Assembly: GCA_016845175.1 (NCBI GenBank)
Contig: JAERTD010000011.1
Span: forward strand, 124,001 to 188,000
Length of the DNA: 64,000 bases
Direction of reading: 5' to 3'
Source of the DNA: Bacteroidota bacterium
GTDB lineage: Bacteria > Bacteroidota > Bacteroidia > Bacteroidales > F082
The first letter of the stretch is position 1. Each line of letters starts with the position of its first letter. The notes under the pieces are model-generated. The model saw only the letters and a program-made list of their open reading frames with translations. It was not told the DNA's origin and made no database searches. The position numbers were made by a program, and so were the translations under genes. Below are positions 42,218-45,103 of the stretch, piece by piece.

Positions 42218-43111
42218 TTAAGCTGTGGACCTTTCAGTTTTGATACTTACAAAATATACACCAGTAAAGATAAGGACAGCTGCCACCACTTCAGTCCAGG
42301 TCAAATGATCCTTTCCAAAGGACAGGGCTACCACAGTAGCCAGAAATGGTTGCAAATAGATATAGGCACTGTTTACAGTAGGGCTAACCACTTTTAAAGA
42401 GTAATTGTTCAATAAGTAAGCAAATACTGTGGTAAAAATGATCACATAGACTATGGACATCCAAATGTTTGGAGGAATGGCTGCATAATCCGATTCCAGA
42501 GCCAGTGGTACAGATACCGGAATTACAAAGAGCAAGCCAAAACTAAAGACCCATTTCATAATCGTCAATGGACTATAAGTTTTCATCAAAGGCTTTACAA
42601 GCACCAGAAAAATGGCATAGGAAGATGCATTGACTAAAATGAACAGGTTACCAAGAAGGGTATCTGAGCTAAATGAAATCTGCCCTTGTCCAAGTATTAA
42701 GTATACAGCTCCTGAAAAACCAAGGATAATACCCAAGACTTTAGATTTTGAAATCCTATCCCCAAGGATAAAATGCGCCATAACCAATACCAAAATAGGC
42801 GTGCCCACCATAATGATGGATGCATTAATGGGTGTGGTCAGGTTTAATCCTTCGAAAAACATGACCTGGTTAACGAAAATCCCAAAAAACGCACAAAGAG
42901 CCAGGCGTATAATATCCTTTTTTTGCACCCTTTCTTTTGGCATGAAGTAATTGATCAACCAAAAGATGATGGCAGCCCCTAAAATTCGAAACAGGATGAT
43001 TACACGTGGTTCCAAATAGTCAGGCATAATGCCTTTTGCAATCACATAATTGAGGCCATAGATTACATTAGCACCCAATATCGATAGGTGGGCTAGAAAT
43101 GTTCTATTCAT
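42218..43111 (-). CDS. EamA/DMT-family transporter
   Basis: The 297-residue protein has about ten membrane helices in two EamA repeats. Repeat one includes GANVIYGLNYVIAKGIMPDY and ends near SGAVYLILGQGQ; repeat two runs to TVVALSFGKDHLTWTEVVAA and FTGVYFVSIK. Members export or import small metabolites; the substrate cannot be told. Its ATG abuts the stop of the DUF3127 gene with no spacer, so the two are coupled. Confidence 0.9.
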   Translation of the reverse strand: MNRTFLAHLSILGANVIYGLNYVIAKGIMPDYLEPRVIILFRILGAAIIFWLINYFMPKERVQKKDIIRLALCAFFGIFVNQVMFFEGLNLTTPINASIIMVGTPILVLVMAHFILGDRISKSKVLGIILGFSGAVYLILGQGQISFSSDTLLGNLFILVNASSYAIFLVLVKPLMKTYSPLTIMKWVFSFGLLFVIPVSVPLALESDYAAIPPNIWMSIVYVIIFTTVFAYLLNNYSLKVVSPTVNSAYIYLQPFLATVVALSFGKDHLTWTEVVAAVLIFTGVYFVSIKTERSTA

Positions 43112-43465
43112 CTAGAAGGGTAAGTCATCCTCCGGATTACCCATATCTGGTGGTATTTCATCAGGACTTGGAGAAGGGGCTGTTCCCACTTCCGGGCCAC
43201 GTTCAATACGCCAGGCCTTCACATCAGTATACCAGCGAGAATTATACTCCCTCGACTCGATATTGATAGAAACAGTTAATTCATCACCCTCGGTTACTTT
43301 TTCAAGCATGGATACCTTATCGCCCCATAGCATAATACAAACCTTCTTAGGGAACTGCTCATCTGTTTCAATAATAAACTGTTGTTTCTCCCATCTGCCA
43401 TTTCTGCCTTCTCCCGACTGAATGGCAAGTTTTTCAATTAGTTTTCCCTTAAGTTCCAAACTCAT
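43112..43465 (-). CDS. DUF3127 OB-fold protein with SSB-like acidic tail
   Basis: The 117-residue protein matches DUF3127, a Bacteroidota family predicted to adopt a single-strand-binding-like OB fold. Strands are visible in LKGKLIEKLAIQ, QFIIETDEQFPKKVCIMLWG and DELTVSINIESREYNSRWYT. After a Pro-rich linker the chain ends EDDLPF, close to the acidic SSB C-terminal tip that recruits repair proteins. This suggests a DNA-metabolism role, which is not established. It is followed immediately by the EamA transporter gene. Confidence 0.82.
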   Translation of the reverse strand: MSLELKGKLIEKLAIQSGEGRNGRWEKQQFIIETDEQFPKKVCIMLWGDKVSMLEKVTEGDELTVSINIESREYNSRWYTDVKAWRIERGPEVGTAPSPSPDEIPPDMGNPEDDLPF

Positions 43466-43486: not shown

Positions 43487-43494
43487 CAAATGTA
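43487..43494 (-). promoter_or_regulatory. Candidate -7 element for the DUF3127 gene
   Basis: On the minus strand TACATTTG matches TAnnTTTG, 21 nt before the ATG. No convincing -33 TTG is seen. It is divergent from and close to a matching box for the zinc-ribbon gene. Confidence 0.4.
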
Positions 43495-44911: not shown

Positions 44912-45103
44912 ATGAAAACCGGTAAAGTAAAGTTTTTTAACAACACCAAAGGGTTTGGTTTCATCAAAGACAATGAATCAGACGAAGAGTATTTTGTACA
45001 TGTAAGTGGCCTAATTGATCAGATCAGAGAAGGCGATGAAGTAACTTTTGATCTTAAAGAAGGCAGAAGAGGAATGAATGCAGATCAGGTAAAACTGGTT
45101 TAG
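44912..45103 (+). CDS. Cold-shock-domain protein
   Basis: The 63-residue protein is a single cold-shock OB fold that binds single-stranded RNA or DNA. RNP1 reads KGFGFIKD at about 13-20 and RNP2 reads YFVHVSGL near 27-34. It lacks any extra domain. A 133-nt upstream spacer without a good TAnnTTTG box precedes it, and a strong terminator follows, so it is probably monocistronic. The gene name in this group varies, so none is given. Confidence 0.95.
   Translation: MKTGKVKFFNNTKGFGFIKDNESDEEYFVHVSGLIDQIREGDEVTFDLKEGRRGMNADQVKLV

Follow-up and report, generated by a model that had tools for sequence, protein, structure and literature searches.

DUF3127, a predicted second SSB-type protein of Bacteroidota with the acidic tip of bacterial SSB

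We analysed a DUF3127 gene located in a 64 kb stretch of Bacteroidota DNA, which in its entirety is referred to here as the window. The evidence presented below makes it likely that DUF3127 is a second SSB-type protein, a diverged sister of the canonical SSB that would act as a hub in the family designated f6. The anatomy of the protein, the conservation of its tip, its OB homology to SSB, its co-occurrence with SSB and the pattern seen in f6 were observed, whereas we infer that it binds ssDNA and docks partners, as well as its assembly state and its role as a hub. A previous sequence-only reading of this gene, which gave no strand (the ORF is on the minus strand, 43465-43112), had proposed that its product could compete with or supplement SSB, or be an SSB derivative serving a particular repair or replication step; as a whole, that interpretation was partly supported. 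The features of the locus are as follows.

43112..43465, minus strand: DUF3127 coding sequence, 117 aa plus stop, with an ATG start, the stop TAG at 43114-43112, and matches to PF11325 and phrog_4932.
43199..43465, minus strand: SSB/PriB-type OB domain, residues 1-89, assigned from the AlphaFold2 model, PDB matches to SSB and PriB, and an OB-only profile match to SSB.
43133..43198, minus strand: Pro-rich disordered linker, residues 90-111, with pLDDT <50 over 92-101 and 103-109, assigned also by composition and by low conservation across the DUF3127 family.
43115..43132, minus strand: SSB-type acidic tip EDDLPF, residues 112-117; PEDDLPF also ends the genome's own SSB, and the tip is kept in 82/84 genera.
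43487..43494, minus strand: TACATTTG, a match to TAnnTTTG, the -7 motif of Bacteroidetes promoters, located 22 bases upstream of the DUF3127 start.
42218..43111, minus strand: transporter, presumably EamA-type, as we named the product from its sequence; it starts directly behind the DUF3127 stop.

The window protein matched the full DUF3127 profile (PF11325, positions 1-85) with an E value of 5.4e-33 and 113.5 bits, against a cut-off of 27. Its residues 3-117 were also aligned to positions 1-117 of the 117 in phrog_4932, described as 'single strand DNA binding protein' (E 1.9e-26). The C-terminus reads ...GNPEDDLPF*, and the Pro-rich linker between the OB part (1-89) and EDDLPF has 22 residues. 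A genome search revealed one copy of the gene. Given that the two strands of the 64 kb window together contain 70 matches of the TAnnTTTG type, TACATTTG is weak evidence by itself. The transporter gene is probably co-transcribed with DUF3127, and a functional link between the two products is not thought likely. At 1.4 kb from DUF3127, on the plus strand (44912-45103), we observed a 63-aa protein that by eye is of the cold-shock type, a small OB-fold nucleic-acid binder.

The resemblance of EDDLPF to the SSB tip, pointed out in the sequence-only reading, extends to identity, since the last seven residues, PEDDLPF, are the same in the window protein and in the main SSB of its own genome. A genome-wide search for [DE][DE]xPF followed by a stop found four sites in the 3.9 Mb genome: the main SSB (PEDDLPF), DUF3127, a PIN-domain protein and one site without any ORF of at least 90 aa ending there. 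Because the nucleotide pattern GANGANMTNCCNTTYTRR skips the TTA/TTG leucine codons, GANGANHTN... and GANGANNTN... were used instead, and rows ending in TGG, which are not stops, were excluded from the counts. The second SSB of this genome has 112 aa and no tip. The PIN-domain protein (328 aa; PIN_12, E 5.7e-21) is encoded on the window's contig about 58 kb before the window start (G000:C11:66329; L175, 532-1518); it ends in DEDELPF, the third SSB-type tip in the genome, and shows a weak match to the PADLOC candidate PDC-S34 (3.2e-8).

DUF3127 was present in 222/395 genomes and in 84/171 sampled genera; in the window's class, among the rows listed, 96 genomes have it (the window's own included) and 2 do not. 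When one copy per genus was read from these 84 genera, the -PF ending was found in 82, so that the tip, whose variability would have argued against the earlier proposal, proved to be conserved. It is missing in L141 and L179, both of the family f14 genera read, which have an acidic end without PF, and the SSBs of these genomes end in DDDLPF (L199, L228). The wider set gave a PF end in 235/242 rows, with the window protein counted twice and one of the other seven cut by a contig end. The mean pairwise identity, calculated from 80 of the 242 rows, was 86% for the last five residues, 40% for the OB domain and 12% for the linker. As anticipated by the earlier description of a Pro-rich linker, this region contains 15.8% Pro across the family, and the spacer between OB and tip covers 6-45 residues (median 28). 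The extra copies found in G394 (three copies, L187-L189) and G351 (L190) have about 100-140 aa and lack both the linker and the tip. A chance resemblance was ruled out by the rarity of the pattern in the genome, its presence in 82/84 genera and its conservation across the family. These data indicate that the acidic tip is a hallmark of the DUF3127 family.

The tip alone does not prove SSB function, since these genomes encode several other proteins, unrelated to SSB in function, with an SSB-like tip at the C-terminus. DnaB, the replicative helicase, has DDDMPF, DDMPF or DDEMPF as its C-terminus in four f6 genomes, G331, G396, G408 and G423 (L360, with a DnaB_C match at E 2.4e-107, and L369, L387 and L389, identified by like tails), so that the helicase bears an SSB-like tip in several f6 genera. 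The exonuclease VII small subunit of G007 (L375) ends in NEDLPF, and the SSB of this genome has no tip. An OLD-family ATPase/TOPRIM protein of G423 (L364; PADLOC Old match, 6.6e-24) ends in NDDLPF, and a 315-aa DUF4062 protein of G409 (L374) in EEEDDDLPF.

A small OB-like fold had also been predicted, and the AlphaFold2 model of the window protein, of moderate confidence (pLDDT 74.6, pTM 0.55), agrees with this prediction. It contains strands at residues 2-12, 16-20, 23-34 and 41-47, a helix at 48-55, and strands at 62-74 and 77-89. The best PDB matches obtained with Foldseek were mycobacterial SSB, B. subtilis SsbA and PriB (E 2.7e-5). VIA-align placed yeast mitochondrial SSB, PriB and SSB in its best rows (Z 12.8 to 11), with Rim1, the yeast mitochondrial SSB, at Z 12.8 (rmsd 2.1 over 87 residues), PriB at Z 12.4 (rmsd 2.2, 86 residues) and 12.1, and M. 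tuberculosis SSB at Z 11.9. According to the model, the fold is an SSB/PriB-type OB. By sequence, no solved homologue was found at E<=1, and the profile search gave one chance-level match only.

The comparison of the DUF3127 profile with a profile of 49 Bacteroidota SSBs gave an hhalign value of 93.9% with the tip included, and 86.8% (E 4.3e-6) when tip and linker were cut from both sides to leave the OB alone; when the columns of the SSB profile were shuffled, the highest value in 30 trials was 4.6%. This OB-only comparison and its shuffle control rule out a resemblance restricted to the tip. From the profile evidence, the OB domain of DUF3127 is homologous to SSB independently of the tip, in agreement with the suggestion that the protein is an SSB derivative. 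The distance is considerable: the Pfam profile search for PF00436 gave no match to the window protein at E<=1, and for this reason the protein is not filed as a canonical SSB. Among 64 DUF3127 relatives, two matched PF00436 at E<=0.1 (best 0.016). Two sequences bridge the families: the DUF3127 copy of G290 reaches PF00436 at E 9.3e-4, and that of phage Fpv5 reaches the SSB alignment profile at 1.1e-5. Three of the four ssDNA-stacking positions of SSB, for which we assumed the E. coli SSB numbering, align to F38, W47 and Y74 of the window protein, and an aromatic residue is found at these positions in 237/242, 130/242 and 236/242 rows, respectively; F38 and Y74 thus favour an SSB-type protein, and W47 speaks against it. 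The four aromatics are described as essential in SSB (PMC5945547, in the portion dealing with them).

The structural matches also bring into consideration a replication-restart factor similar to PriB (primosomal replication protein N), that is, an OB protein descended from SSB that would cooperate with PriA and the helicase loader, and whose tip would dock at SSB partners without forming the bulk coat. The model is matched equally well by PriB and by SSB structures, PriB being within one Z unit of the best row; the OB part is of similar size, and phage DUF3127 genes are found near primase/helicase and replication initiation genes. However, the tip is the most conserved part of DUF3127 and is present in 235/242 rows, whereas PriB is not known to have an acidic tip or a linker, and the PriB chains among the PDB matches (about 90-110 residues) stop after the OB fold. 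The taxa in which PriB occurs are also others than those of DUF3127, and a restart factor would leave unexplained the six f6 genomes in which no other SSB was found (see below). We therefore regard this explanation as unlikely.

As far as seen, DUF3127 is restricted to Bacteroidota and a few MAGs that bear other labels, together with the phages of these bacteria. We searched for the canonical SSB in 70 DUF3127-bearing representative genomes (of the 84 genera), and it was present in 70/70; 62/72 SSB ORFs read, including the two of the window's genome, have a PF end. Most of the phylum would thus have, in DUF3127, a second SSB that bears the tip. These results fit the idea that it supplements SSB across most of Bacteroidota; the alternative of competition is less apt for f6, where DUF3127 may replace SSB as a hub rather than compete with it.

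The f6 search comprised 148 genomes, 140 of them good. DUF3127 was found in 146/148 (140/140 of the good ones) and canonical SSB, detected with PF00436, in 141/148 (134/140). Many of these genomes have as their only SSB a protein of about 113 aa that stops right after the OB fold. In the 34 genomes picked for having one short SSB, it was the only strong match in 34/34 (one with an extra fragment), and the tip was absent in 27/27 of the short SSB C-termini read. The f6 DUF3127 ORFs end in DDLPF in 46/46 read, and those of two additional genera in DGLPF. A long SSB with the tip is also retained in other genera of f6 (e.g., L270, L279 and L284), and in three the tip is borne by an SSB of a different type (L367, L368 and L373). 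The tail-bearing SSB thus appears to have been lost within f6.

In addition, six f6 genomes (G396, G399, G407, G408, G424 and G473, with completeness of 99%, 79%, 99%, 99%, 93% and 99%, respectively) gave no SSB with the Pfam profile or, at E<=1, with two SSB alignment profiles. In these six genomes the SSB alignment profiles matched the DUF3127 gene, and in G407 also its second DUF3127 copy. A seventh candidate, G410, was discarded because it has a diverged tip-bearing SSB (L365, PF00436 E 3.1e-8) that had been missed by the Pfam profile and the first alignment profile; a similar miss or an assembly gap is possible in the other six, and their SSB is considered not detected, rather than proven absent. 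In f6 genomes with a tipless or undetected SSB, DUF3127 was the only tip-bearing SSB-type protein found. The pocket of SSB partners that receives the tip buries its last Phe, and E. coli does not survive without the tip or this residue (PMC10164576, in the sections concerned), so a bacterium with a naturally tipless SSB needs another tip carrier. Since SSB is often tipless or not found in f6, DUF3127 may replace it there as the docking hub.

The f6 data are also relevant to the idea that DUF3127 is a tip-donor subunit, forming mixed assemblies with the tipless SSB and giving them a docking tail without coating ssDNA by itself. A tipless SSB and a tip-bearing DUF3127 are indeed the two SSB-type proteins in 34/34 f6 genomes with one short SSB. 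This role would be left without a recipient in the six genomes that have DUF3127 and in which no SSB was found, and would be redundant elsewhere, where DUF3127 coexists with a tip-bearing SSB; we consider it quite improbable, somewhat more so than a restart factor.

Regarding the genomic context, the neighbours of DUF3127 in 80 related loci plus the window are metabolic and variable in close relatives, and an EamA-type homologue is nearby in 21 of these loci, the window included. No conserved operon with a DNA-maintenance gene was found among the 80 close-relative loci, and the neighbours in the window are not replication genes either. The sliding clamp gene dnaN is the divergent neighbour in 4/5 same-order genomes besides the window's own (L002, L008, L013 and L019; the exception is L004), and these loci belong to another family of the window's order. 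It is also the divergent neighbour of DUF3127 in Bacteroides finegoldii, and in Phocaeicola massiliensis the DUF3127 gene has a dnaN homologue in its vicinity.

DUF3127 also occurs in 77 Bacteroidota phage records, with RecT-like, Erf-like, exonuclease, NinG, DnaA-like and primase/helicase genes as neighbours; in LoVEphage, Dulem virus 40, Fpv5 and filifjonk this context is poorer or different. All phage copies read (10/10) carry the tip. Three of these ten stretches (L195, L196 and L395) contain, where the primase/helicase is annotated, an ORF of about 610-625 aa that has DEVPF or SDVPF as its C-terminus and adjoins the tip-bearing DUF3127 gene. The dnaN adjacency in one same-order family and the recombination neighbourhoods of phages only hint at the particular repair or replication step evoked in the sequence-only reading.

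Given these phage copies, DUF3127 could be a phage-derived gene retained in chromosomes as a counter-defence or anti-phage part, but this seems highly improbable: almost all genomes of the class have it (96 with and 2 without among the rows listed), as a single copy as a rule, no defence neighbours were seen in the 80 related loci plus the window, and phages more probably took DUF3127 from their hosts. A defence role was rejected, as the window protein has no PADLOC match. There is equally little chance that the C-terminal LPF is a ClpXP degradation tag instead of a docking tip, because, although the last three residues LPF of Streptococcus mutans SsbA make a protein a ClpXP substrate in that species, the ClpXP of E. 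coli, S. gordonii and S. sanguinis is described as not recognising LPF (both in the relevant part of PMC5143411), and a tag would not need the OB fold, the linker and the acidic residues kept alongside it across the phylum.

Among known systems, the canonical SSB (PF00436) has the same OB type, a disordered linker and an acidic tip ending in DDLPF; the OB part of DUF3127 is, however, about 20 residues shorter and lacks most of the insert that holds the TEWHN stretch. The members of phrog_4932 match over the full length, and DUF3127 proteins carry the name single strand DNA binding protein in the RefSeq records of phages, but these are phage-encoded and, as far as seen, their function rests on annotation. 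SsbB/SsbC of Firmicutes and Actinobacteria also represent a second SSB beside the main one, but these are of the PF00436 type by sequence and often tipless, as treated in part of PMC5945547; DUF3127, in contrast, is far diverged and keeps the tip, and in f6 it is the PF00436 protein that often lacks it. The only paper found to mention DUF3127 by name, PMC8004638, describes it together with an SSB domain in gp25 of Pantoea phage AAS23; gp25, however, comes from a phage of Gammaproteobacteria and matches E. coli SSB strongly.

Taken as a second SSB-type protein, DUF3127 would work through the same design as SSB, an OB fold, a disordered linker and a docking tip. Its OB domain most likely coats or caps ssDNA, and its EDDLPF tip most likely recruits the partners that dock on the identical tip of the main SSB. 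In most of the phylum it would work beside a tip-bearing SSB and might be devoted to one specific step at the fork or in repair. In f6, where the canonical SSB is often tailless, DUF3127 would supply the tip and become the docking hub, and in a few f6 genomes it may be the only SSB. A more far-reaching version, in which DUF3127 is a core SSB of Bacteroidota that took the hub role from the tail-less SSB in f6 and is the sole SSB in a few genomes, is put forward tentatively, with the odds somewhat against it; it would amount to the displacement of one of the most universal bacterial replication proteins.

That DUF3127 is an SSB was already stated by PHROGs and phage records, and a search of the open-licence literature found no paper on the bacterial protein. 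What the sequence comparisons add is a putative phylum-wide second hub in bacteria and the f6 pattern. The SSB tip is where the replication and repair proteins of bacteria dock in common (PMC10164576, in the text on the tip); an unstudied second protein with this tip appears to be present throughout the phylum, and f6 appears to keep the tip there instead of on SSB. If true, this would explain how life with a tipless SSB is possible and would give a name to a gene that almost all genomes of the class possess.
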